A DNA stretch of 40,908 nt, from positions 1 through 40,908 of the IMG/VR virus record IMGVR_UViG_3300030202_003533; one strand, 5' to 3'. Each line of letters begins with the position of its first letter. The first letter of the stretch is position 1. The DNA is from a virus. Positions 28,925 through 40,908 of this stretch are shown in pieces. The translations under genes and the position numbers were made by a program. Under the pieces are notes generated by a model. That model had not been told where the DNA came from. It worked only from the letters and a program-made list of their open reading frames with translations, and did not search any database.

Positions 28925-30223
28925 ATGTCTAAGACTCCTTTTGCAAACAAAAATTCTAATACAAAAGAATTGTATAAAAGCAGAGAGATATACGAGGAAT
29001 TTTATCCAACTGATATAGACCAGTTTGACTTGTGGAATAATTTACCTTTATATGGTAGAGTGGATAATGAGGGTACAACAGTTTTCCCGAGGGAATCAAA
29101 GCTCGTTTATATTACCCAGTCCAGCGATAAAAAACAGCTAGCAGTCTTAAACTTTGTTGCAGATGCTTTTCGAAAAATGAGAGAACACTATAAAACAATT
29201 TTTAGATTAAATACTGAGGCAGGTCCAACAAGATTTTTTTCAAGCACTCTAGAACCAACTAGAGCATGGGAAAGCCCTGTAATTGGATATAATGTTTACA
29301 TACAGTCAATATATGATGACTTTTACTCTAATGTTTTAGTAGATTTGGAACAAAGTGATAAAATTAAAAACTTTAAAGATTTCACAAATTTATTATTTGA
29401 GTATATAAGACAAAACGGAAAAGCCTTTACTAGAATGGCATATGGAGAATCTGGGAAATCAACTGTTTTAAACACTGGGTTGGCTATTGAAATATACCCT
29501 GGCGACTATGGGGATGACAAGTTATCCGCCTCTTTTGTCAATGATCCCAACTTCCCAATTTATCAAGAACTATGTAGAAAATACGGATTTAAAATTGATA
29601 GGAATATTCCGTGGAGGATTGTAGCAAATCTTCGGAGCAATAACTTGTCTCCTTTTATAAAAGAGAAGTTACAGAATAACTCCGACAACACGATTAAAAA
29701 TATATTTACAGAATTTTACATTTCATGTGATGGCAACGAATATTTTGAAGAATTTATAACTTACTTAAAAGGATTTTATGCGACTTTTTACCAAGCTAAT
29801 AAACAGTATAAACAAAGTGTGTTCAACTCTGATAAACTTTGTAATGGTATAAGTTACAAATTGGTTAATAGACAAAGCCCAAGTTCAGAAGAGACAACTT
29901 TGCCTTTACTAGAGAAATTAATTCTTTTTTACAAGTTTAGATTGGCAGAATTAAATTTAAAAGCAAGTACAAAAAGACAGTCGTTTCACTTAAAAAATGT
30001 TACTGCGATTGTTAAATCACTAAAAAATGAAGAACTGGCTACAAAAAAAGCTCTTGAATATATTAAATATAATCTAGGTACGGCTGCTTTCCGCGAGGTA
30101 CCACTCTCCCAAAATAACTTGACAAGATCTAACGATGGTGTTATGATGTCTGCACAGGATCAGTTCGATAAAAGAACTGGCGAAAACAGCAGGTATATAA
30201 CAGATGATCTTTCAGGTCCTTGA
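28925..30223 (+). CDS. virion-operon protein of unknown function
   Basis: 432 residues, alpha/beta, with a disordered lead (MSKTPFANKNSNTKELYKSR). A basic, Asn-rich middle includes FKIDRNIPWRIVANLRSNNL. A helical C-terminal half follows, with an end region LTRSNDGVMMSAQDQFDKRT and GENSRYITDDLSGP. No motif I can name. It continues the baseplate block, so a structural role is likely. It is the last late-type gene before the replication block, and its 3' end contains a sigma-70 promoter and overlaps the DNA polymerase start by 20 bases. Confidence 0.75.
   Translation: MSKTPFANKNSNTKELYKSREIYEEFYPTDIDQFDLWNNLPLYGRVDNEGTTVFPRESKLVYITQSSDKKQLAVLNFVADAFRKMREHYKTIFRLNTEAGPTRFFSSTLEPTRAWESPVIGYNVYIQSIYDDFYSNVLVDLEQSDKIKNFKDFTNLLFEYIRQNGKAFTRMAYGESGKSTVLNTGLAIEIYPGDYGDDKLSASFVNDPNFPIYQELCRKYGFKIDRNIPWRIVANLRSNNLSPFIKEKLQNNSDNTIKNIFTEFYISCDGNEYFEEFITYLKGFYATFYQANKQYKQSVFNSDKLCNGISYKLVNRQSPSSEETTLPLLEKLILFYKFRLAELNLKASTKRQSFHLKNVTAIVKSLKNEELATKKALEYIKYNLGTAAFREVPLSQNNLTRSNDGVMMSAQDQFDKRTGENSRYITDDLSGP
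30119..30147 (+). promoter_or_regulatory. sigma-70 promoter for the replication block, inside upstream gene
   Basis: TTGACA at 30119-30124, a 17-base spacer, then TATGAT at 30142-30147. It lies within the 3' end of the 28925 gene and 57 bases before the polymerase ATG. The match is 11 of 12 to consensus. It would let early RNA polymerase start the replication genes apart from the late virion operon. Confidence 0.7.
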
Positions 30224-31394
30224 TAACAAGATTGAGTGTGTTGGCTACTACAGTGCCGGCAAAATTTATAAAGAAGATGTTGGTCACAACTTTACTCAAA
30301 CTTGGGATAGTTCTCCAAACTTTATGTCTAAAGCTGTAGACTATGCTAAACTTTATGCGGGTGTGGATAGTATAGATGATGTGCCACTGCCTGACCACCT
30401 CCACACTGAATGGCGGTCCTCTACAAAACGGATGAAGGCATTTATTAATTCACTGAGAAAAGCAAAAGTTAGTTTAGATGATCACTGTTTTTATGACTTG
30501 GTACCAGATAAGTTCCTAACTGACTTCTATGAAAACAAAACACAGGTTACAGATTTTGTCTTTAAAAACTTTAGTAAGCCAGCCAACTATGATTTTCTTA
30601 AGGATGTTAATTTGCTATTAGCTAAGATCGCTGGTCAAAAACTTATCGTTGATAAGAGCAAGCTAAACCAGCGATTCATGAAGAAAACAGACTTTGTTGC
30701 GGCTCAAAAGTTCTTGAACAGCACTGACAAAATCAGCTATAATATATTTAAAAGCAAGACTGGTCGCCTTTCAACACAGAAAACTAGCTTTCCAGTCTTA
30801 GCTTTTGATAAAAGATTTCGGCAGATTTTGAAGCCACATAATCACTGGTTCTTAGAGCTAGACTTCAATGCGAACGAACTTCGTGTTTTACAAGCTTTAA
30901 ATGGTGTAGAACAGCCGAAAGAGGATATCCACGACTGGAACATCAAGAATATATTTGGAAGCGATACAGAGCGATCTGATGCGAAGAAGAGGGCATTTGC
31001 TTGGCTTTACAATCCAAACTCACAAGATACGGCAATGAGCAAGTTTTATGATAAGGAAAAAATCCTATCAACATATTACAGAGATGGTATCATCACAACA
31101 CCTTTTGATCGCAAGATTGCCAGTGATGACTTCCATGCTCTAAACTACTTGATTCAAAGCACAGCATCTGATGTTTGTTTGAAACAAACCCTCAAACTGG
31201 ATAAGCTTTTAGAGGGCAAGAAAAGCTACATCACAGCAGTGATCCATGATTCAGTTTTGATCGACTACGATGAGGAAGACAAAGATATCTTAAAAGAACT
31301 GGTTTCTACATATGGTAAAACTAGCTTTGGAGATTTTAAAGTTAATATTTCAGTTGGATTAAACTACGGAGAAATGAAAGAACTATGCAGGTAA
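30204..31394 (+). CDS. short family A DNA polymerase
   Basis: 396 residues, polymerase core only. Family A motifs are clear: TGRLS at 186-190; motif A LELDFNANELRVL with Asp220; motif B R257-x3-K261-x3-F265-x3-Y269-N270 (the O-helix pattern, with Asn for the usual Gly); a segment ALNYLIQSTASDV near 312-323; and motif C VIHDS at 346-350, where the usual HDE is HDS. No 3'-5' exonuclease domain (DEDD motifs) is visible in the first 130 residues, and the length is far below E. coli Pol I (928) or T7 (704). T4 itself uses family B gp43. Its neighbours are the tubulin-like gene, gp32 and UvsX, so it is likely the phage replicase or an accessory polymerase. Confidence 0.87.
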   Translation: MIFQVLDNKIECVGYYSAGKIYKEDVGHNFTQTWDSSPNFMSKAVDYAKLYAGVDSIDDVPLPDHLHTEWRSSTKRMKAFINSLRKAKVSLDDHCFYDLVPDKFLTDFYENKTQVTDFVFKNFSKPANYDFLKDVNLLLAKIAGQKLIVDKSKLNQRFMKKTDFVAAQKFLNSTDKISYNIFKSKTGRLSTQKTSFPVLAFDKRFRQILKPHNHWFLELDFNANELRVLQALNGVEQPKEDIHDWNIKNIFGSDTERSDAKKRAFAWLYNPNSQDTAMSKFYDKEKILSTYYRDGIITTPFDRKIASDDFHALNYLIQSTASDVCLKQTLKLDKLLEGKKSYITAVIHDSVLIDYDEEDKDILKELVSTYGKTSFGDFKVNISVGLNYGEMKELCR

Positions 31395-32224
31395 TTGGGA
31401 TTGGTACAGGAGGGTGTCAGGTTGCAACTGATCTGGCACAATATGGTGTTTATGATATCATTAATGTCGACACATCTTTTAAGGTTGAATTAGATGATGT
31501 GATAAACATTGAGCTTGAAAGGCAAGAAACTTTCAAAGAGTATGAGACAGAAACAAAGCTTGACATCCGCAGCGAAATAAAGTATAATAGTGTACATGTG
31601 TTTTTGTTCGGAGGAGGAAAAACCACCGGTTCAGTTCTTAGAATTTTAGAAAAAATTAAAGATAAAAAAATTACGATACACTATATCAAACCAGAAAAAA
31701 ACTTCTTATCGGCTAAACAAAAGTTAAGAGAACGAGCCATATGTGGTATACTACAAGAGATGGCTAGATCTGGAGTGTTCAATAGAATGTATCTTTACGA
31801 CACATCTAAAATCTTAGAAGGACAAGAGGTTGCTTTTCTCAAGAAGAAAGACCATGTTTCAAAAACAATAGCGGGAATGTTTCACACGATTAACTTTACA
31901 AAAAACACTGAAGACTTATTTTCAAATGTTGAGGATCCAATGGAAGTCAATAGAATTGCTACGATTGGTACGGTTAATCCAGAGGATGGAAAGGAGGTAT
32001 TGTATTTTCCTCTTGACAGCATCCGAGAAAAGTGTTACTATTTCGTTATGAGTAAATCAGCACTGGAGACACCCGGTGTTATAGAAAAAATAAATGACCA
32101 AATAAAAGAAGAAAATGAACAATCTTCTTTTAAGATTATAGAGTCAGACTGGTCAGATAATCATGTTTATATGGAAGCATTTACAAATGTTGTCCAGATA
32201 ACCCAAGAAAAAACGGAGGAATAA
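31385..32224 (+). CDS. FtsZ/tubulin-like GTPase-fold protein
   Basis: 279 residues that line up along their length with FtsZ. VIGIGTGGCQVATDL (3-17) matches the first nucleotide loop (VIGVGGGGxNAV), and INVDT (26-30) matches AVNTD. VHVFLFGGGKTTGS (70-83) matches VFxxAGMGGGTGTG. ITIHYIKPE (97-104) matches LTVAVVTKPF. LRERAICGILQEM then MYLYDTSKILE matches the SLIxIPNDKLL region. VSKTIAGMFHTIN with NTEDLF corresponds to helix H7 and the T7 loop, but NxDxxD is not preserved. The C-terminal part CYYFVMSKSALETPGVIEKI resembles the second FtsZ domain. The G-box (GGGKTTG) is altered. It may form filaments that position phage DNA, as PhuZ does in other phages, or have lost GTPase activity. It overlaps the polymerase gene by 10 bases. 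Confidence 0.68.
   Translation: MQVIGIGTGGCQVATDLAQYGVYDIINVDTSFKVELDDVINIELERQETFKEYETETKLDIRSEIKYNSVHVFLFGGGKTTGSVLRILEKIKDKKITIHYIKPEKNFLSAKQKLRERAICGILQEMARSGVFNRMYLYDTSKILEGQEVAFLKKKDHVSKTIAGMFHTINFTKNTEDLFSNVEDPMEVNRIATIGTVNPEDGKEVLYFPLDSIREKCYYFVMSKSALETPGVIEKINDQIKEENEQSSFKIIESDWSDNHVYMEAFTNVVQITQEKTEE
31560..31588 (+). promoter_or_regulatory. perfect sigma-70 consensus promoter inside the tubulin-like gene
   Basis: TTGACA (31560-31565), 17 bases, TATAAT (31583-31588): a full 12 of 12 match. It lies at codons 59-68 of the tubulin-like gene, on the sense strand. A transcript from here would cover the rest of that gene and continue into gp32. Coding constraint does not demand this sequence, so it is probably functional. 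Confidence 0.65.
32013..32041 (+). promoter_or_regulatory. sigma-70-like promoter upstream of gp32
   Basis: TTGACA (32013-32018), 17 bases, TACTAT (32036-32041), in the 3' part of the tubulin-like gene and about 184 bases before the gp32 ATG. It is a good match apart from two -10 positions. With the 31560 site it would give gp32 two internal promoters. Confidence 0.52.
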
Positions 32225-32971
32225 ATGGGTATTGATCTTAAAAAAATGCGGCAAAAGTTGTCCGATCTACACAACAAGGGCGGTAACGGCAATGGTGTTA
32301 AGTTTTGGAAGCCAGTTGACGGAGAGAATGTTATTCGCATTCTACCTTCACCAGATGGTGATCCCTTTAAACACTTTCACTTTCACTACAATGTAGGGGA
32401 GAAGGCAGGCTTTTTGTGCCCAAAGAAGAACTTTGGTGACGATTGTCCTGTGTGTGATTTTGTGTCTAAACTTTACAACGATGGTGATGATGAATCACGG
32501 CAGTTGGCTCGTAAGCTTGTAGCAAAGAGTCGCTTCTTCTCACCAGTTGTTGTTCGCGGAGAAGATAATGAAGGTACTAAGGTTTGGGGTTACAGCAAGA
32601 CAGTCTATGAAAACTTGCTACAACTAGTTCTAAATCCTGACTATGGTGATATTACAGATGCCGATGCAGGCACCGACCTAGCTTTGGTTTACGGCAAAGC
32701 CCCCGGTGCGATGTTCCCATCCACTAATATTACTGCCCGTCGTAAGACATCTAAGATTTCGTCCGATGATGCTCTTATGAAGGAGCTTATGGAAACTGAA
32801 ATCGACTTTGATAAGATTTTCGAAGTTAAGACTAAGGAAGAGGTTGCTGCTATTTTAGACAAGTTCCTACTTGGTGAAGATGGTGGTAACGACTCTGATG
32901 GAGTTGTTGTTACAGATAAGTCGGGAGGTTCATCCGTTGATGATGCTTTCAAGGACTTACTAGCTAGCTAA
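32225..32971 (+). CDS. gp32: single-stranded DNA-binding protein (gp32-like)
   Basis: 248 residues (T4 gp32 is 301). It has a basic N-terminal B-domain (GIDLKKMRQKLSDLHNKGG) for cooperativity, then FWKPVDGENVIRILPSPDGD. A zinc site H52-x12-C65-x8-C74-x2-C77 (CPKKNFGDDCPVC) follows, closely matching the T4 H-C-C-C spacing. An OB-fold core comes next, and an acidic tail ends SSVDDAFKDLLAS for protein contacts. It coats ssDNA in replication, recombination and repair, and sits between the tubulin-like gene and uvsX. The SD GGAGG lies just before ATG 32225. A very GC-rich hairpin follows the stop. Confidence 0.95.
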   Translation: MGIDLKKMRQKLSDLHNKGGNGNGVKFWKPVDGENVIRILPSPDGDPFKHFHFHYNVGEKAGFLCPKKNFGDDCPVCDFVSKLYNDGDDESRQLARKLVAKSRFFSPVVVRGEDNEGTKVWGYSKTVYENLLQLVLNPDYGDITDADAGTDLALVYGKAPGAMFPSTNITARRKTSKISSDDALMKELMETEIDFDKIFEVKTKEEVAAILDKFLLGEDGGNDSDGVVVTDKSGGSSVDDAFKDLLAS

Positions 32972-32976
32972 TCAGT

Positions 32977-33003
32977 GGGGGGGAGCGGTTGCTCCCCCCC
33001 TTT
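32977..33003 (+). terminator. GC-rich hairpin after gp32, partial terminator or RNA stabiliser
   Basis: A perfect 10-bp stem, GGGGGGGAGC with GCTCCCCCCC, and a GGTT loop at 32977-33000, followed by only three T. It sits 15 bases before the uvsX SD. With a weak T-run it may terminate only partly, giving more gp32 than UvsX, or protect the gp32 RNA 3' end. Confidence 0.65.
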
Positions 33004-33018
33004 CACTACGGAGGAAAA

Positions 33019-34134
33019 ATGGCAAAAGCGACAGCAATTGGTCGGTTAAACATAGCCGACATGAAAAAGTTAATTAATAAAAAAGCAGGAACTAATGTAG
33101 CATTCTCATTAGCAGAAGATAACCCAACAGAGGTTAACCAATTTATTCCAACTGGATGTAAATGGCTTGATGGTATTATCAAAAGAGGCACATGGGGTGG
33201 CATTCCTGTAGGAAAGATAAGTGAGATTGCCGGTTTGGAAGCAACTGGTAAGTCTTACATGGCAGCACAAATCGCTGGCAATGCTCAAAGAATAGGAATA
33301 GATGTAATCTATTTTGATTCAGAGAACTCTATTGACCCAGAGTTTTTGGCAAATGCTGGTTGTGATATTGAGAAGTTGCTTTATGTACAAGCAAGTTCGG
33401 TAGAGTTTGTGTTAGAAACTATTGAGAGTCTGTTGGCTAACAATGATAGTCAAATGCTTTTTATCTGGGATAGTATGGCTTTAACTCCATCGGTATCAGA
33501 TATTGAATCAGACTTTAATCCGTTATCAACAATGGCGGTAAAGCCTCGTATTCTATCAAAGGGTATGGCAAAGCTAATTCAGCCAATCGCTAACACCAAG
33601 TCAACTCTGCTAATTCTAAATCAGTTAAAAACTAACATCACTAGAAACACAGCAGAGGCTCTTACGACTCCTTACTTCGCACCGGGAGGCAAAGCTTTAG
33701 CTTATTCTTATTCTTTAAGAATCTGGTTAACTGCTCGTAAAGGTAAGTCGTCTTTTATCTTTGATGAGAAGGGATTTAGGATTGGTACCGAGGTTAAAGC
33801 GAAGATTCAGAAGTCTCGTTTCGGAACTCAAGGTCGTCAATGTAATTTTAAGATCTTGTGGGCTGGAGATGAAGTAAAAATTATGGATAAGGAAAGTTGG
33901 TTTGAAGCCGTTAAGTCGTCTGATAAACTAACAAATGCTGGAGCTTGGTTCACTCTACATCATGAAGATGGATCAAAAGATAAGTTCCAGTCAAAGCAGT
34001 GGATAAATAAATTACAAGAAGAGAAGTTTTACAACAGAGTCATTGAATTGTTGGAAGAAGAAGTAGTAATGAAGTTTGATAAAAGAATTGGAGACTCAAG
34101 CGACTTCTATGAAGATACAGAGAAAAAGAAATAA
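33019..34134 (+). CDS. uvsX: UvsX/RecA-like recombinase
   Basis: 371 residues from ATG 33019, chosen for its GGAGG SD; an upstream in-frame TTG at 32989 lies inside the hairpin. The RecA fold is clear: PTGCKWLDGIIKRGTWGGIP (44-63), Walker A GLEATGKS (72-79), VIYFDSENSID (96-106) with the catalytic Glu, and Walker B QMLFIWDSMAL (145-155). A DNA-binding loop region lies near ITRNTAEALTTPYFAPGGKA. It promotes strand exchange in recombination-dependent replication with gp32 and gp46/47. A promoter and terminator element follows. Confidence 0.95.
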   Translation: MAKATAIGRLNIADMKKLINKKAGTNVAFSLAEDNPTEVNQFIPTGCKWLDGIIKRGTWGGIPVGKISEIAGLEATGKSYMAAQIAGNAQRIGIDVIYFDSENSIDPEFLANAGCDIEKLLYVQASSVEFVLETIESLLANNDSQMLFIWDSMALTPSVSDIESDFNPLSTMAVKPRILSKGMAKLIQPIANTKSTLLILNQLKTNITRNTAEALTTPYFAPGGKALAYSYSLRIWLTARKGKSSFIFDEKGFRIGTEVKAKIQKSRFGTQGRQCNFKILWAGDEVKIMDKESWFEAVKSSDKLTNAGAWFTLHHEDGSKDKFQSKQWINKLQEEKFYNRVIELLEEEVVMKFDKRIGDSSDFYEDTEKKK

Positions 34135-34170
34135 AAGAAACCCTGCTGAGGTCAGGCATAGACAAAGTGC

Positions 34171-34199
34171 TTGACTTCTCCTCCAACCCCTGCTAGAAT
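34171..34199 (+). promoter_or_regulatory. sigma-70 promoter overlapping a terminator stem
   Basis: TTGACT (34171-34176), 17 bases, TAGAAT (34194-34199). The -10 box lies in the left arm of the hairpin at 34185-34218, so transcripts should begin near 34206, within the right arm. These transcripts lack the left arm and keep the SD AGGGG (34212-34216) free for the 34224 gene. Confidence 0.7.
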
Positions 34200-34223
34200 A
34201 TTATTTCTAGCAGGGGTTTTTTT
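34185..34223 (+). terminator. intrinsic terminator whose right arm contains the next gene's SD
   Basis: A 14-bp perfect stem (AACCCCTGCTAGAA with TTCTAGCAGGGGTT), loop TATTAT, then five further T running up to ATG 34224. Read-through RNA from uvsX would terminate here or, if it escaped, carry the next SD locked in the stem. Confidence 0.88.
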
Positions 34224-35171
34224 ATGGAAAGAATTATGATCGTAGACATGTTAAACATGTACTACAGAGCCTACATCGTTGATCCTTCGTTGTCTTCAAA
34301 CGGACAACCAATCGGAGGAATCAAAGGCTCTTTAAAAATTTTACAAAAGTTATGTAGAGAGATTAGACCAACACAGGTCTATATTTGTTGGGATGGTCGT
34401 GAAGGCTCATCCAAGCGGAGGAAGATTAATAAAGGGTATAAGGAAGGGCGAAAGCCTATCCGGCTGAACCGAAGTGTTAAGAACATGACAGAGAAGCAAG
34501 AAGCACAGAATAAGATCTGGCAGATGATTAGGCTCGCTGAATACTTCAATCAGTTGCCACTTTGCCAAATCAACATTGACTACTCTGAAGCCGATGATAT
34601 TATCGGAGCTTTAGTCAAGAGGTTCAAAGATAAAGAGAAGGTGATCGTATCAAGCGATAAAGACTACTTCCAACTATTGGATGAGTCAACACTTCTGCTT
34701 CGTCCAACACAGAAACAGATCTTAAATAAGAATAATATTTTAGAAGAATACAATATTCACCCATCAAACTTCGCACTTGCGAGGGCTATCGTGGGAGATA
34801 AGAGTGATAACCTGCCCGGTGTAAGAGGCATTGGACTCAAGACAGTAGCGAAAAGAATGCCTTTTTTGAAGGATAAAGAAGATTGCCTCTTGAAAGATGT
34901 GTTCGAATCTGCTATAGTAGAAGACCGATTTTGGGAAAAGATAACAGAGCACAAAAGTTTGATTGAAGAAAACTATAAAGTTATGAATCTAGGAACTGTC
35001 TTTCTATCTCCTCAGAATACAAGGGTGATTAAAGAGTCGGTAGAGAACTACCCACTAGAGTTCGCTCGCACTGAGTTTATTAAAATGATGATGCAAGACG
35101 GATTTGCTGAATTAAACTGGGATGATTTGTATTCATCCATGAACCGTATAAGGATTGCTAATGCTAAATAA
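34224..35171 (+). CDS. rnh: 5'-3' exonuclease / RNase H (FEN family)
   Basis: 315 residues, near T4 RNase H (305). Metal-binding acids of the PIN/FEN fold are visible: D8 in IMIVDMLN, D57 in YICWDGR, E122/D124/D125 in SEADDII, D145/D147 in VSSDKDYFQ, and D192/D195 in GDKSDN. The helix-hairpin-helix GVRGIGLKTVAKR (199-211) binds DNA. The KRRKINKGYKEGRKP segment matches the FEN arch region. It removes RNA primers and flaps from lagging strands. It is insulated from uvsX by its own promoter and terminator and overlaps the helicase gene by 11 bases. Confidence 0.95.
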   Translation: MERIMIVDMLNMYYRAYIVDPSLSSNGQPIGGIKGSLKILQKLCREIRPTQVYICWDGREGSSKRRKINKGYKEGRKPIRLNRSVKNMTEKQEAQNKIWQMIRLAEYFNQLPLCQINIDYSEADDIIGALVKRFKDKEKVIVSSDKDYFQLLDESTLLLRPTQKQILNKNNILEEYNIHPSNFALARAIVGDKSDNLPGVRGIGLKTVAKRMPFLKDKEDCLLKDVFESAIVEDRFWEKITEHKSLIEENYKVMNLGTVFLSPQNTRVIKESVENYPLEFARTEFIKMMMQDGFAELNWDDLYSSMNRIRIANAK

Positions 35172-36525
35172 AGATTTTTCAAAGTTTGGAAAACATTTCC
35201 AAGAGAACTTGGTACAGATTATGTTCGAAGACAGAGCTTTCTGTGATCAGGTTGGAGAGGTCTTTAAAGCAGAGTTCTTAGAACAAAAGTATCTTCAGCA
35301 GTTTGTTGATAGGTTGTTTGGTTACAAGGCACAATACAAGACACACCCGTCTTCACAGGCTTTTTCAACAATCCTGCGAACAGAACTGGATGAATCTAAT
35401 CCAATCTTAGTTAAGCAAGTCCGTGATTTCTTTGCTAGGATTCAAGCAAACCCCGCTGTAAATGATGAAGAATATGTTAAGCACACATCATTAGACTTTT
35501 GTCGCAAGCAAAAGCTAAAAGAAGCTCTAATGAAGTCTGCGAACTTACTTCAAAAGGCTAGCTTTGATGAGATATCAGTTCTCATTAATGAGGCTTTAAA
35601 GTTAGGTTCAGACAATTCTTATGGGTACGATTACAAACTTGATTTTGAAAAAAGGTTTGTACTAACACACAGAGATCCAGTTTCAACAGGCTGGGATCTA
35701 ATTGACAAGATTAGCAAAGGCGGTTTAGGAGCAGGTGAGTTGGGTGTTGTTATTGCTCCAACTGGAGCAGGCAAGTCAATGGCTCTTGTCCACTTGGGCA
35801 CACGAGCTTTAGTTGAAGGCAAGACAGTAGTCCACTTCACACTAGAGTTAGGTGATACTGTTGTCGCAGGTCGTTATGATTCTTGTTTAACAGGGATTCA
35901 CCTAAAAGATCTTTATCATCGTAAGGACGATATCTACGATGAGGTAAAAGATGTTAAGGGCAATGTGATTGTAAAAGAGTATCCAACTAAGTCAGCTTCT
36001 GTCTTAACATTGAGAAACCATCTTAGTAAGTTACAGAACCGTGGGATTGAGATTGGAACAATCATTGTAGACTATGCTGACCTTTTGAAACCAACTGGAA
36101 ACAATTATAATGAAAAAAGAATTGAGTTAGAGACGATTTATGAGAACTTGAGAGGGCTTTCTCAAGAGTTTAAATGTCCTATTTGGACTGCCTCACAAAC
36201 AAATCGTGGGGGATTAAATGCGGAAGTTATTACAATGGAAAGTATTTCTGAAGCATTCAACAAATGTTTTGTCGCAGACTTCATATTTACTCTATCTCGA
36301 ACAATCGAGGACAAGAATGTTAACGCGGCTAGAATGTTCGTAGCAAAAAATAGAAATGGACCAGACGGACTTGTTTATCCAATGAAGATGGACACATCCA
36401 ATGTTTTATTGGAAGTCTTAGAGCCGGATGGTAATTCCATTACAGATATTAATAAAGAAGCTGCTAAGAACCAAAAGCAAAAATTAGCCGATATTTACAA
36501 GAAATTTAAAAAGGAGAACAAATAA
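35161..36525 (+). CDS. gp41: replicative DNA helicase (gp41-like, DnaB/RecA-fold)
   Basis: 454 residues from ATG 35161 with an AAGGA SD at 35149-35153; a TTG 6 bases earlier is less likely. The N-terminal helical domain (1-150) is followed by STGWDLIDKISKGGLGAGEL and Walker A APTGAGKS (199-206). Next come VHFTLELGDTVVAGRYD, Walker B region GTIIVDYADLLK, and PIWTASQTNRGGL. The C-terminal loops include FIFTLSRTIEDK. It unwinds the fork as a hexamer and works with a primase not seen here. It starts inside the FEN gene and its stop overlaps the next ATG (TAATG). Confidence 0.93.
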   Translation: MLNKDFSKFGKHFQENLVQIMFEDRAFCDQVGEVFKAEFLEQKYLQQFVDRLFGYKAQYKTHPSSQAFSTILRTELDESNPILVKQVRDFFARIQANPAVNDEEYVKHTSLDFCRKQKLKEALMKSANLLQKASFDEISVLINEALKLGSDNSYGYDYKLDFEKRFVLTHRDPVSTGWDLIDKISKGGLGAGELGVVIAPTGAGKSMALVHLGTRALVEGKTVVHFTLELGDTVVAGRYDSCLTGIHLKDLYHRKDDIYDEVKDVKGNVIVKEYPTKSASVLTLRNHLSKLQNRGIEIGTIIVDYADLLKPTGNNYNEKRIELETIYENLRGLSQEFKCPIWTASQTNRGGLNAEVITMESISEAFNKCFVADFIFTLSRTIEDKNVNAARMFVAKNRNGPDGLVYPMKMDTSNVLLEVLEPDGNSITDINKEAAKNQKQKLADIYKKFKKENK

Positions 36526-38384
36526 TGCAAAGAGCGTCAGAAATTCTGTCAGATATCACCGTACACATGAAGTACGCAAAGTATGATCCTGAAAAAGAAC
36601 GTAGAGAAAATTGGGTAGAACTTTGTACTCGCAATATGAATATGCATATTAAGAAGTACCCAGAATTAGAGAATGAAATTAAGCAAGTCTATGACAACTA
36701 TGTCATATCAAAGAAAATTTTACCTTCTATGCGGTCAATGCAGTTCGCTGGTAAACCAATTGAGGTCGCCCCAAATCGTGTATATAATTGTGCTTACATG
36801 CCAATTGACCATGCTGATGCTTTTTCTGAATGTATGTTTTTATTATTGGGTGGTACCGGTGTTGGTTTTTCAGTACAGGCACACCATGTTGAGAAGCTTC
36901 CAGAGATCCGCAAACCAAGCACTAAAAGAACTCGCCGCTTCTTAATTTCTGATTCAATCGAAGGCTGGGCAGATGCAGTCAAAGCCCTTATTCACTCCTA
37001 CTTTAAAGGCACATCTAAACTGCGATTTGATTTTAGCGATATCCGAGCAAAGGGTGCTAGACTTGTAACTACTGGCGGTAAGGCACCGGGACCACAGCCT
37101 CTTCGTGAATGTTTGGTGAAAGTTGAAGGTGTGCTAAGTGAAAAAGAAGACGGTGATAAATTAGAACCAATCGAGGTTCATGATATGATTTGTTATATTG
37201 CTGATGCAGTTTTAGCCGGCGGCATTCGCAGAGCAGCACTCATCTCTTTGTTTTCAGCAGACGATGACGAGATGATCTCCTCAAAATCAGGCAGTTGGTG
37301 GGAAAGCAACCCACAGCGAGGTCGAGCAAACAATTCAGCAGTAATCCTACGACACAAGGTTGATAAAGAATACTTCATGAAACTCTGGGAACGGATTAAG
37401 AAGTCAGGTTCCGGCGAACCCGGCATTTACCTTTCCAATGACAAAGATTGGGGTACAAACCCTTGTTGTGAGATTGCTCTCAGACCGTACCAGTTTTGTA
37501 ATTTAACTGAGGTAAATGCTTCAGATTTAGAGGACCAGGAAGAGTACGAAGCCCGAGTTAAGGCAGCAGCCTTTCTAGGCACCCTACAAGCCGGTTACAC
37601 GGACTTTCACTACCTCCGTGATGTATGGCGGCGAAATACTGAGAAAGATGCTCTAATCGGAGTCTCGATGACTGGAATTGGATCTGGTAAAGTATTAGAT
37701 CTAGACATGGAATCTGGTGCAAAAGCTGTAAAAGAAGAAAATGCGAGAGTCGCAGATCTTATTGGAATCCGAAAAGCAGCTAGAACAACATGTGTTAAAC
37801 CAGCAGGTACAACCTCTTTGACTCTTGGAACCTCTTCTGGTATCCATGCTTGGCATAATGATTATTACATTCGCCGTCTGAGAGTGGGAAAGAATGAGGC
37901 AATTTATAATTACTTATCATTAATCCATCCAGAGTTGGTTGAAGACGAATTCTTTAGACCCCATGACACTGCTGTTATCTCAGTGCCACAAAAGGCACCA
38001 GACGGAGCGATTTACAGAACAGAATCCGCAATGTCCATGCTTAAGCGAGTTGCTAGAGTTTCAAACGAGTGGGTTCGCAAAGGTCATAGAAAAGGTCAGA
38101 ACACTCATAATGTTTCAGCAACAGTAAGCATTCGTGAATCAGAATGGGAAGATGTTGGTGAATGGATGTGGGAAAACCGTGATGTTTACAATGGTTTAAG
38201 TGTTCTTCCATATGATGGCGGCAACTACCAGCAAGCACCTTTTGAGGACTGTTCTAAAGAAACTTATGATGTAATGCTTCAGTCATTAACAGAAGTAGAT
38301 CTTAACAATGTTTTTGAGACTGATGACAACACAGATCTTTCTGGTGAGTTAGCTTGTGCTGGTGGGGCATGTGAAGTGGTTTAA
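36525..38384 (+). CDS. nrdJ: class II (B12-dependent) ribonucleotide reductase
   Basis: 619 residues, monomeric RTPR type. Catalytic residues match the Lactobacillus enzyme pattern: Cys89 in RVYNCAY, NPCCEI with Cys314 and Glu316, Cys325 in FCNLTEV (the same 11-residue spacing from Cys314), and the C-terminal redox pair Cys611/Cys616 in CAGGAC. Other family blocks are LLLGGTGVGFSVQAHHV, KPAGTTSLTLGTSSGIHAWH and YNGLSVLPYDGG. It is shorter than the 739-residue bacterial enzyme but looks complete. It makes deoxynucleotides using adenosylcobalamin, so the host must make or import B12. T4 itself uses class I and III enzymes. Confidence 0.94.
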   Translation: MQRASEILSDITVHMKYAKYDPEKERRENWVELCTRNMNMHIKKYPELENEIKQVYDNYVISKKILPSMRSMQFAGKPIEVAPNRVYNCAYMPIDHADAFSECMFLLLGGTGVGFSVQAHHVEKLPEIRKPSTKRTRRFLISDSIEGWADAVKALIHSYFKGTSKLRFDFSDIRAKGARLVTTGGKAPGPQPLRECLVKVEGVLSEKEDGDKLEPIEVHDMICYIADAVLAGGIRRAALISLFSADDDEMISSKSGSWWESNPQRGRANNSAVILRHKVDKEYFMKLWERIKKSGSGEPGIYLSNDKDWGTNPCCEIALRPYQFCNLTEVNASDLEDQEEYEARVKAAAFLGTLQAGYTDFHYLRDVWRRNTEKDALIGVSMTGIGSGKVLDLDMESGAKAVKEENARVADLIGIRKAARTTCVKPAGTTSLTLGTSSGIHAWHNDYYIRRLRVGKNEAIYNYLSLIHPELVEDEFFRPHDTAVISVPQKAPDGAIYRTESAMSMLKRVARVSNEWVRKGHRKGQNTHNVSATVSIRESEWEDVGEWMWENRDVYNGLSVLPYDGGNYQQAPFEDCSKETYDVMLQSLTEVDLNNVFETDDNTDLSGELACAGGACEVV

Positions 38385-38426
38385 TGTGTACTTAAACACT
38401 AATTATATGAAATAGGGGTTCCTAAA

Positions 38427-38714
38427 ATGTCAGACAAGATGAATGTTAATACAGCCGTTGAGTTCGTAGAACTCAAGGGTCAGCTTCAAAGAATCGAGGA
38501 TGCCATTATGACCATTAAAGAGAAGAACGAAGAAATGGCTGATGACATCACTAAGATAAAAGAAGCAATTTACAATCCAGATCAAGGTATTTATTCTCGT
38601 TTAAAAGAGCTAGAGGCTTGGAAGTCTAGTGTGACCAGAGTCCTCTGGCTCTTGGCGACTGGAGCATTAGGCTCATTTGGTGTCGCACTTTGGGAAATCC
38701 TCAAAAAAACATAA
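38427..38714 (+). CDS. holin-like protein with coiled coil and C-terminal TM (XhlA-like)
   Basis: 95 residues. A coiled coil occupies about 10-70 (VELKGQLQRIEDAIMTIKEK and more), followed by one TM segment at about 72-90 (VLWLLATGALGSFGVALWEI) and a basic end (LKKT). This is the layout of XhlA/hemolysin-type holin accessory proteins. It lies 9 bases before the endolysin, which strongly supports a lysis role. The SD GGGG at 38414-38417 is a little far from the ATG. The alternative is a general membrane anchor. Confidence 0.78.
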   Translation: MSDKMNVNTAVEFVELKGQLQRIEDAIMTIKEKNEEMADDITKIKEAIYNPDQGIYSRLKELEAWKSSVTRVLWLLATGALGSFGVALWEILKKT

Positions 38715-38723
38715 GGTGTAAAA

Positions 38724-39650
38724 ATGTTATTAAAAAATGGTTCATCTGGTCATCAGGTGATTGAACTTCAAGAAGGTCTTGAAGCTTTAGGTTATGAATT
38801 AGGCAATTGCGATGGAGCCTTTGGTCCCGCAACAGAGAAAGCTGTAAAGGCTTTTCAAGAAGTCCAAGGATTAAAAGTAGATGGGCTAGTTGGAAGAGGA
38901 ACAATTGCCTCTTTAAATAAGCTGTTGAAAACGACAGGACACGATTTAATTGGCGAAGATGAACAAAACGAGCTTGAAGAACTTCCGCCGGCAGAAAAAT
39001 TATCATGGGTTAAGTGCCCAGCAGATAAGTTCCCCGGTAGAGCAGGTTACACTAGGGTAACACTTCGTTCAGATGCCGCAGAGGCTTACAACGAACTTTA
39101 CAAAGAGGTAAAGGAACTCGGTGGTTATATAACATCAGCAGGTGGCAGAAGAGGCTTGGCTTCTAAATCAGGTGCTGCTCGTTCAAAGAAATCCTTTCAC
39201 TACACTGGATTGGCTTTTGATATGGCTTTGCCAACAGGCATGTATAAGCCAGAGGAAGATCCTTATGTCATTGAAGACATTGGAGATCGAAGATGGAGAG
39301 TGTGGATGCGCTGTGATAACGGCGAAGAAATGGAGTTGGAAGGAACTTATGTAACCCGCTCAGGCAGAAAGACTAAACTTAAGACCAAAAAGGTTACAGG
39401 TAAGTTTGTTGACTTCACAGCCTTAGCATTAAAACACGGCTTTCATTCTATTAGAGCCAGACGATCTTTCTTTAACGGAGGATCTTATGGTGGTTCAGAA
39501 TGGTGGCACTTCCAATATGAGCGAGCACTTACAAAAGGTGAATCAAAGTTTGGTGAAGAGTTATTAAAAGTTTACTCACTAGCTAAGTGTAAGAGATTTA
39601 TCTATTGGGATGTGTCTAAAGATTGTATCTTTGGAAAGAATTGGTTTTAG
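38724..39650 (+). CDS. endolysin: peptidoglycan-binding domain plus M15 peptidase
   Basis: 308 residues in two domains. Residues 1-70 form a PG-binding type 1 domain (GSSGHQVIELQEGLEALGYE, GAFGPATEKAVKAFQEVQGL, VDGLVGRGTIASLNKLL). Residues about 95-270 form a VanY/D-Ala-D-Ala carboxypeptidase-like (M15) domain with zinc ligands H159 and D166 in SFHYTGLAFD and H262 in EWWHF; E259 is the likely catalytic base. There is no signal peptide, so release depends on a holin, encoded 9 bases upstream. It cuts stem-peptide bonds at lysis. The SD AAGGTG fits the start at 38724. A perfect early-type promoter begins right after its stop. Confidence 0.93.
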   Translation: MLLKNGSSGHQVIELQEGLEALGYELGNCDGAFGPATEKAVKAFQEVQGLKVDGLVGRGTIASLNKLLKTTGHDLIGEDEQNELEELPPAEKLSWVKCPADKFPGRAGYTRVTLRSDAAEAYNELYKEVKELGGYITSAGGRRGLASKSGAARSKKSFHYTGLAFDMALPTGMYKPEEDPYVIEDIGDRRWRVWMRCDNGEEMELEGTYVTRSGRKTKLKTKKVTGKFVDFTALALKHGFHSIRARRSFFNGGSYGGSEWWHFQYERALTKGESKFGEELLKVYSLAKCKRFIYWDVSKDCIFGKNWF

Positions 39651-39653
39651 GAC

Positions 39654-39682
39654 TTGACATGCCCAGAAAAATTTTGTATAAT
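39654..39682 (+). promoter_or_regulatory. perfect sigma-70 consensus promoter
   Basis: TTGACA (39654-39659), 17 bases, TATAAT (39677-39682), starting 3 bases after the endolysin stop. The expected start is near 39689, giving an 11-base leader with GAGGT before ATG 39700. This is a full-consensus, early-type promoter. Confidence 0.88.
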
Positions 39683-39699
39683 GAACTGGTGAGGTCAAA

Positions 39700-39906
39700 A
39701 TGAAAAGATTCCAATTTATAATTCATAATCCAAAAACAGAAGAAGTAAAGATGCGGAACATTGAAAGGAGAACTTTTAATGATGCCGTAGTCGATGCCCG
39801 TATTTATGCTCAGTGCGAGTGGGAAAACACAGGCGATACTTGGGATTTAGTAGCCATATATGATATGGACTATGAATTTGATCTCACACGACCGACGAGG
39901 GGGTGA
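39700..39906 (+). CDS. small early protein of unknown function
   Basis: 68 residues, SD GAGG in a leader of about 11 bases. The sequence FQFIIHNPKTEEVKMRNIER, then TFNDAVVDARIYAQCEWENT, looks like a small alpha/beta domain. It ends with an acidic strand (WDLVAIYDMDYEFDLTRPTRG). The helix and ERxxFxDAVxxA pattern recall small modulators, but no family is assigned. It is driven by the consensus promoter just upstream, so it is likely an early host-takeover type protein; that is inference. Confidence 0.7.
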   Translation: MKRFQFIIHNPKTEEVKMRNIERRTFNDAVVDARIYAQCEWENTGDTWDLVAIYDMDYEFDLTRPTRG

Positions 39907-39975
39907 TTTCCATTAGGTCGAGATCAACCCGCAGGAGAGGCACGGGGTAAAAGGTGTCTCATTTCTTACTAATTA

Positions 39976-39984
39976 TGGTATAAT
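39976..39984 (+). promoter_or_regulatory. extended -10 element next to the HNH start codon
   Basis: TGGTATAAT is an extended -10 (TGnTATAAT) ending one base before ATG 39985; no good -35 is seen. Transcription would start inside the ORF, so it cannot serve the 39985 start. It may drive a shorter product or be chance in AT-rich DNA. The 78-base gap also holds an AGGAG and a bulged hairpin near 39935-39960. Confidence 0.35.
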
Positions 39985-40509
39985 ATGGATACTTTGGTAT
40001 TATCATCTGCTTATCAACCAATGCGACATGTAAAATGGCAAGATGCTATTTCAATGTGGTTTTCTGGAAGGGTTGAGATTGTTTCAGTTTATGAAGACAG
40101 ATATATCAAAACCGTAGATGAGATCTTTAATGTCCCTTCGATTGTTCGTTTTGTTGGGAATGTCCTTAAAAGATTTAAGTTTAATAGAGTGGTTAAGTTT
40201 AGCAGAGAGAATGTTTTCATTCGCGATGATGGTGAATGTCAATATTGCTCAAAGAATCTAACAAAACAGAACTTTACATTAGATCATGTCATTCCAGTTT
40301 CGCAAGGCGGCAAAAAAGTTTGGCAAAACATAGTAACTTGTTGCAAGTCTTGTAATCAAAAGAAAGGCAGCAAGTCACTTAAACGAGCAGGGATGAAGCT
40401 ATTGAAGCCTCCCACAGTGCCAAAGGAATTAATTGTGAGCAAAGAAAATAAATTCAATCACAATGTTCCTGACGAATGGAAAATTTATCTTGGAGTAAAA
40501 AATGTATAG
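39985..40509 (+). CDS. HNH endonuclease
   Basis: 174 residues. The opening DTLVLSSAYQPMRHVKWQDA is the usual start of this HNH subfamily (LVLxxxYxPxxxxxWxxA), supporting ATG 39985 despite the lack of a close SD. The C-terminal domain has C85-x2-C88 (CQYC), LDHVIPVSQGG with D100/H101, N115, and CCKSCNQKKG (Cys120-x2-Cys123, Asn124), making a zinc-stabilised HNH fold. Such genes are often free-standing homing endonucleases in T4-like phages, or host-DNA nucleases. It lies among early genes and overlaps the next gene by 8 bases. Confidence 0.9.
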   Translation: MDTLVLSSAYQPMRHVKWQDAISMWFSGRVEIVSVYEDRYIKTVDEIFNVPSIVRFVGNVLKRFKFNRVVKFSRENVFIRDDGECQYCSKNLTKQNFTLDHVIPVSQGGKKVWQNIVTCCKSCNQKKGSKSLKRAGMKLLKPPTVPKELIVSKENKFNHNVPDEWKIYLGVKNV

Positions 40510-40726
40510 AGCATATAAGATTACAGATTTTGAAGTTGGTGATTACTTGTTTAAGTTTGAAGAAAACAAATGGGTCAACTACGGGAAAATTGTTCTAGAA
40601 CAAGGAACTATGTTTGGCATTAGAACTAATACCCACGAAGGAATTTTTATGCTACGAAATAATGTTCTTTACTCTGAAGGCTTTATCGCAAGCAAAGATC
40701 CTCTTGACAAACCATCAAAAGGTTGA
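40502..40726 (+). CDS. small early protein of unknown function
   Basis: 74 residues, a small beta-rich domain: YKITDFEVGDYLFKFEENKW, then VNYGKIVLEQGTMFGIRTNT and EGIFMLRNNVLYSEGF. It has the look of an SH3-like barrel (VGDYLFKFEENKWVNYGK), but no family is assigned. ATG 40502 lies inside the HNH gene end. The -35/-10 promoter for the following micro-protein overlaps its 3' end. Confidence 0.65.
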   Translation: MYRAYKITDFEVGDYLFKFEENKWVNYGKIVLEQGTMFGIRTNTHEGIFMLRNNVLYSEGFIASKDPLDKPSKG

Positions 40727-40732
40727 TACAAT
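40704..40732 (+). promoter_or_regulatory. sigma-70 promoter before the tRNA region
   Basis: TTGACA (40704-40709), 17 bases, TACAAT (40727-40732). The predicted start near 40739 gives a short leader with GAGGT before ATG 40758. It probably drives the micro-protein and the tRNA-Tyr downstream. Confidence 0.8.
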
Positions 40733-40757
40733 AGTATTCACGATAACGAGGTAAGAA

Positions 40758-40841
40758 ATGAAACACAACATGATTGATGCTTTAGTAGCTGTCACATTTA
40801 CTGTTTGTGTAGTAATGGCTTTGCATTACTATATTAACTAA
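40758..40841 (+). CDS. 27-residue membrane micro-protein
   Basis: A short ORF with a GAGGT Shine-Dalgarno and ATG 40758. After KHNMID the product is one hydrophobic helix (ALVAVTFTVCVVMALHYYIN). It is preceded by a strong promoter and followed by a tRNA. It is likely a single-pass inner-membrane peptide of unknown role; its size makes the call tentative, but promoter plus SD favour it. Confidence 0.55.
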   Translation: MKHNMIDALVAVTFTVCVVMALHYYIN

Positions 40842-40848
40842 AACATAA

Positions 40849-40908
40849 GGATGAGTGTCCGAGTGGCTAAAGGAGGTGGTCTGTAAAACCGCTGGCGCAA
40901 GCCTACGT
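40849..40908 (+). tRNA. tRNA-Tyr (GTA anticodon), 3' truncated by window end
   Basis: The 5' acceptor strand GGATGAG (40849-40855) is followed by TG, a D-arm (TCCGAGTGGCTAAAGGA) and an anticodon arm GTGGT-CTGTAAA-ACCGC with one G-T pair. The anticodon is GTA for tyrosine. The start of a long variable arm (GGCGCAAGCC) fits class II tRNA-Tyr. The T arm and 3' acceptor strand lie beyond the window, so the exact end is unknown. Confidence 0.85.

Follow-up and report, generated by a model that had tools for sequence, protein, structure and literature searches.

Can the same bases serve as promoter, terminator and ribosome binding site, and what would a phage gain from such an overlap? The question is raised by the 53 bp that precede a 5'-3' exonuclease/flap endonuclease (FEN) gene in the window, by which is meant the whole stretch analysed here, a 40,908-nucleotide (40.9-kb) IMG/VR fragment from an uncultured phage. 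In this fragment, genes for a gp32-like protein and DNA polymerase A precede the uvsX gene, after which come the genes for FEN, a DnaB-like helicase and a class II ribonucleotide reductase. The gap between uvsX and FEN measures 89 bp, and the promoter, the stem, the T-tract and the Shine-Dalgarno (SD) sequence are all contained in it. Further upstream, a perfect TTGACA-17-TATAAT is present at 31560-31588, within a conserved 279-aa ORF (31385-32224), and is possibly the promoter for gp32/uvsX.

The window gave no match when compared with cultured phages by DNA similarity, and an Rfam search of it returned no family. In the cultured-phage comparison collection, the FEN proteins share at most 37% identity with that of the window. 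For the two closest, from Microcystis phage Mel-JY01 and a 484-kb metagenomic phage, inspection revealed no nested element at the equivalent place.

Signals in the gap between uvsX and FEN

The original prediction described a sigma-70-type promoter, TTGACT-17-TAGAAT, with its -10 box in the left arm of a 14-bp terminator and the SD of the FEN gene in the right arm. Its coordinates all proved right (Table 1). The hexamer TAGAAT occupies 34194-34199, with TGn just 5' to it and a 17-nt spacer separating it from the -35 box.

Table 1. Features at the uvsX-FEN junction of the window
Feature	Position	Strand	Remarks
uvsX-like RecA recombinase gene	32989-34134	+	Upstream transcription unit; Pfam RecA, 1.5e-31
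Upstream hairpin HP1	34148-34178	+	Right arm holds the -35 box; folds at -17.1 kcal/mol
-35 box TTGACT	34171-34176	+	TTGAC in 22/22 distinct sequences, 17 nt from the -10 box in all
Terminator stem-loop	34185-34218	+	14 pairs, loop of 6; arms 34185-34198 and 34205-34218; 7 G-C pairs
Extended -10 TGCTAGAAT	34191-34199	+	Left arm of the terminator stem, final T in the loop; TGnTAGAAT in 21/22 distinct sequences
Predicted transcription start	34206	+	Past the left arm, 7 nt after the -10 box; from sigma-70 spacing
Shine-Dalgarno AGGGG	34212-34216	+	In the right arm; purine-rich SD kept while bases vary with left-arm partners
T7 tract	34217-34223	+	Terminator tail and SD-to-ATG spacer; reaches the ATG at 34224
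5'-3' exonuclease/FEN gene (T4 RNase H-like)	34224-35171	+	Pfam 5_3_exonuc_N, 4.1e-29

The stem is stable (-24.7 kcal/mol), G+C-rich and directly followed by a U-tract, as is typical of an intrinsic terminator, which speaks for the predicted role. It is the strongest of the 12 terminator-like sites within 30000-40908, where shuffled sequences yield 6.9. The RNA of 34135-34280 folds with a z of -7.2, a fold equalled by none of 200 shuffles. Further, 7 of the last 8 nt before the FEN ATG are T, where the window's 37 other genes average about 2, and such a T-rich spacer fits a terminator tail. In an E. coli system, terminating ribosomes were reported to block a terminator lying within ~27 nt (PMC4824070); here the stem starts 50 nt past the uvsX stop codon, which exceeds that range. 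Termination may nevertheless be partial, since the U-tract is broken in several relatives (TTATTTT).

The SD lies in the right arm and the promoter in the left one, so that RNA from this promoter would lack the left arm. It had been predicted that read-through RNA would bury the SD and that RNA from the internal promoter would leave it open, and partition function calculations agree with both for all 22 versions of the element (see below). With the left arm included, opening of the SD costs 10-17 kcal/mol, and the SD is nearly always paired. When the RNA begins 7 nt past the -10 box, as predicted, the cost is 1-3.5 kcal/mol and the SD is open or nearly so. According to these models, FEN is apparently translatable only from messages begun at the nested promoter.

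Conservation and covariation among relatives

A FEN-protein scan of viral contigs yielded 43 loci, 41 of them with upstream DNA, and in 37 of these 41 the element stands ahead of FEN. There are 22 distinct versions, that of the window included, and their carriers are uncultured phages, mostly marine. In all members of this clade with the element and enough upstream DNA, uvsX is located directly upstream or next but one. A search of 2.9 million viral contigs with the exact promoter-stem pattern added no contig to those from the FEN search. No second site of the same architecture was found within the window or the other examined loci of the clade; each contig carries a single site, including contigs of 101 and 125 kb. 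An extra weak model match in the 101-kb contig, considered as a second copy, proved to be a terminator of the usual kind, with no promoter.

Both arms and the -10 box were expected to be conserved in related phages, and this is true of every relative at ~59% identity or more. Some of the more distant FEN relatives have no element.

Across relatives, the motif ahead of FEN reads TTGAC(T/A)-17-TGnTAG(A/C)AT, and the single exception to TAGAAT among the 22 sequences is TAGACT. In these sequences TTGAC, the 17-nt spacing, TG, TAG-AT and the arms are either invariant or show paired changes, while the outer spacer and the loop vary. It is this conservation, and not the match score, that makes the promoter credible as one of sigma-70 type, with hexamers at ~17-nt spacing. 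A 10/12 match by itself is at chance level in the A+T-rich DNA of the window (32 found versus 26.8 expected); TAGAAT differs from the consensus, and it was scored against the sigma-70 pattern, which may not be that of the phage's own host. Chance matches of this kind could be taken to mean that the promoter is spurious, the hairpin being the uvsX terminator, with FEN translated from read-through RNA that leaks past it, once this RNA is cleaved or ribosomes unwind it. However, TTGAC lies outside the stem and is still invariant, at an exact spacing of 17 nt, amid a spacer that is mostly variable 5' of the left arm, and diverged relatives keep the -35 and -10 boxes with new stem sequences. A spurious promoter is, therefore, very improbable.

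The 22 sequences share a stem of 12 perfectly paired positions, whose left arm contains the -10 box and whose right arm contains the SD. All 264 cells (12 pairs in 22 sequences) hold standard pairs, and two-sided changes have occurred in four of the pairs. The covariation score is 0.272, compared with 0.122 +/- 0.013 for shuffled alignments, none of 500 of which reached this value; pairings slid out of register score 0.091 at most. The pair adjoining the -10 box, which is free of the demands of both promoter and SD, appears as C-G, G-C, A-U and once as U-G, and the FEN gene tree requires nine or more changes of it; for pairs 18/19 the minimum is three. The SD itself varies between GGGG, GAGG and AAGG, each variant matched by changes in the left arm.

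The cells that depart from Watson-Crick pairing are G-U in 11 cases and A-C in none. Palindromic DNA, or RNA of the opposite strand, would show no such bias, which points to RNA of the (+) strand, running from uvsX to FEN, as the molecule that folds and is selected to fold. Selection on the folding of this RNA would in turn imply that read-through happens and that its folding matters. The same counts bear on the proposal that the palindrome is a DNA operator, bound by a dimeric repressor that controls FEN, with RNA folding as a side effect. Operators do classically sit over the -10 box, as this near-perfect palindrome does, but a fixed operator is expected to keep its sequence and not to tell G-U from A-C. 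Instead, several lineages show paired changes in the arms, the 8 bases at the centre are variable, the deviations are of the G-U type on one strand, and the T-tract is found on one side only. The G-U and A-C counts led us to discard the operator reading, to which we assign hardly any probability.

Just upstream, HP1-like pairing of 7-12 pairs is seen in most relatives. The left arm of HP1 is what remains of the 3' end of a small ORF that the clade of the window has lost; in some relatives it encodes the last residues, GQG, of a small protein, and in others it has outlived that gene. A basic ORF of ~40-50 aa (..KKKTRQGxGTFTK..NKRSKxYKKPYRGQGR) is present between uvsX and the element in L020, L023, L031, L032, L035 and others, and of it the window retains the last 20-30 bases only, at about 34138-34160. 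In L092, both arms of HP1 are altered in a matched way (GGGGTCAAG/CTTGACTCC).

Nested sites in more distant phages

A profile search extended the comparison to FEN genes at 51-57% identity, of which the best 80 loci were surveyed; the frequencies given apply to those. Several of them have a nested promoter/terminator at the uvsX junction, built from quite different bases. In L094-L096, TACAAT is placed within a palindrome with the SD in an arm. In L097, L100, L120, L132, L137 and L163, a CCCTC/GAGGG stem holds TATAAT or TATTAT in its upper part or its loop; L107/L109 and L125 are further cases. Apart from L094-L096, the SD in these nested forms lies 3' of the T-tract, outside the stem. A pattern search for the GCCTT/AAGGC form gave no match. 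In four loci (L093, L130, L136 and L138) the nested element stands farther upstream, separated from FEN by an accessory gene (J-domain, HAD-like or deaminase-like by eye) that gives the impression of an insertion after the element.

In a tree of FEN proteins, the representatives whose stem includes the SD, 19 in all, are grouped in a single clade with a support of 100. The other half of the tree has 25 representatives that lack the element and, among them, 11 whose SD is external to the stem. From this distribution we conclude that the nested promoter/terminator is probably the broader pattern, to which SD burial was added, or in which it was kept, in one clade. What appears to be new here is that distant relatives keep the promoter-in-terminator at the uvsX junction with the SD outside the stem, so that translation control would not be essential to the arrangement.

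Nesting is not confined to FEN genes. In an unrelated phage group (L145, L149, L150, L152-L154 and L160-L162), TTGACA-17-TATAAT is nested in a CCCTCTGATAGTATAATAGATACTACAGAGGG terminator, and this CCCTC/GAGGG site precedes a small membrane/lipoprotein gene cluster. In coliphage RB49 (L141, 3161-3192, minus strand), the -10 box of TTGACA-16-TATAAT lies exactly in the terminator loop. In both RB49 and Phi1, one site of this nested kind separates gene 39 from ORF005, and its SD is not part of the stem; the other promoter-terminator pairs in their first 50 kb are mostly tandem, with the -10 box ~60 nt past the start of the stem. The RB49/Phi1 site offers a cultured, testable case of the nested arrangement.

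Such sites, as well as the distant FEN relatives with an SD 3' of the T-tract, would suit an explanation by economy of space: the uvsX terminator and the FEN promoter were nested in a tiny gap, and the SD merely fits into the stem with no added regulatory role. Against this, the SD is kept in the stem by every sampled member of the clade, down to ~54% FEN identity, and it is retained while paired bases change, which indicates a joint arrangement that is stable and not drifting. Economy of space as the whole explanation is thus rather unlikely.

A proposed start-dependent gate and its known counterparts

The elements, their joint conservation and the covariation specific to one RNA strand can be read directly from the sequences. 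On this basis, the 53-bp stretch is quite probably explained as a gate dependent on where transcription starts, made up of a terminator, a nested promoter and SD burial. A polymerase arriving from uvsX would transcribe the entire hairpin and be released at the U-tract; any read-through RNA that escapes would carry the hairpin and so hide the FEN SD from ribosomes. A polymerase at the nested promoter would start near 34206. Its RNA would have an 18-nt leader with an open SD and, as it is without the left arm, could form neither hairpin nor terminator. FEN would then be driven by its own promoter, which would probably also serve the helicase and reductase genes that follow, and uvsX would end cleanly. 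The RNA ends, the efficiency of termination and the size of the effect on translation are predictions of this scheme, and its biological reason may be a separate dosage or timing of nuclease and recombinase. Insulation from uvsX, already suggested in the original prediction, is what we infer to be the purpose of the element. FEN-type nucleases in excess can harm DNA, and this toxicity would be a good reason for a double lock.

The close overlap of the three signals is genuine and is conserved, and its component tricks are already known. With belief and doubt about evenly balanced, we propose a three-in-one gate not described before, in which one stem is an intrinsic terminator, has an extended sigma-70 -10 box in the left arm and the SD in the right one, and insulates a phage replication nuclease both transcriptionally and translationally; an older promoter-in-terminator at the uvsX junction would have given rise to it in a single clade. 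Such a compact natural insulator requires the co-evolution of three signals, a constraint that is visible as covariation. More generally, phages nest promoters in terminators at the boundaries of gene units, in at least three unrelated sequence forms. These sites will be overlooked by automated annotation in which terminators are masked or promoters are scored by themselves. The element is also a small part, testable in any E. coli reporter.

The insertion sequences IS10, IS50 and IS200 shield their transposase from outside transcription: read-through RNA hides the SD, and RNA from their own promoter is without part of the hairpin. The window element resembles them in both respects. There, however, a mobile element is defended against fortuitous transcription, whereas here a core replication gene of a phage is concerned.

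Start-dependent burial of the SD is also known from hairpins of T4 e, soc, I-TevI/II/III and segB and of Aeh1 mobE, which work with middle or late promoters (PMC3014915, PMC2988022). The likeness to e and soc that had been suggested holds in part. In these hairpins too, the left arm contains or adjoins the promoter, the long RNA buries the SD of the right arm and the short RNA frees it. They occur in T4-type phages and act in time, the early RNA being silent and the late RNA translated. In place of a T4-type late promoter (TATAAATA, without a -35 box, as for e, soc and I-TevI), the window has a sigma-70-type TTGACT-17-TGnTAGAAT, and the gene it serves is a replication/repair nuclease. The available text of the two sources describes no terminator function for the T4 hairpins, while the stem of the window has a U-tract ending at the start codon.

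The overlap of terminator and promoter has its own parallel. Composite promoter-terminator cassettes of T4-type phages, called PeSL, were reportedly described by Arbiol in 2010 and by Comeau in 2014. As far as the available text goes, a PeSL cassette is a short intergenic element in which a sigma-70-like early promoter is coupled to a terminator stem-loop (PMC4503421), as is the case here, and in this respect it is a precedent as close as e and soc. PeSL cassettes are reportedly repeated in the genome and the seat of recombination between cassettes; the element studied here is a single site per contig. Unlike the mostly tandem pairs of RB49 and Phi1, its promoter, terminator and SD make up one stem, in single copy and tied to one gene. 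Thus, the window element joins start-dependent SD burial with a promoter-terminator cassette, its bases being shared three ways.
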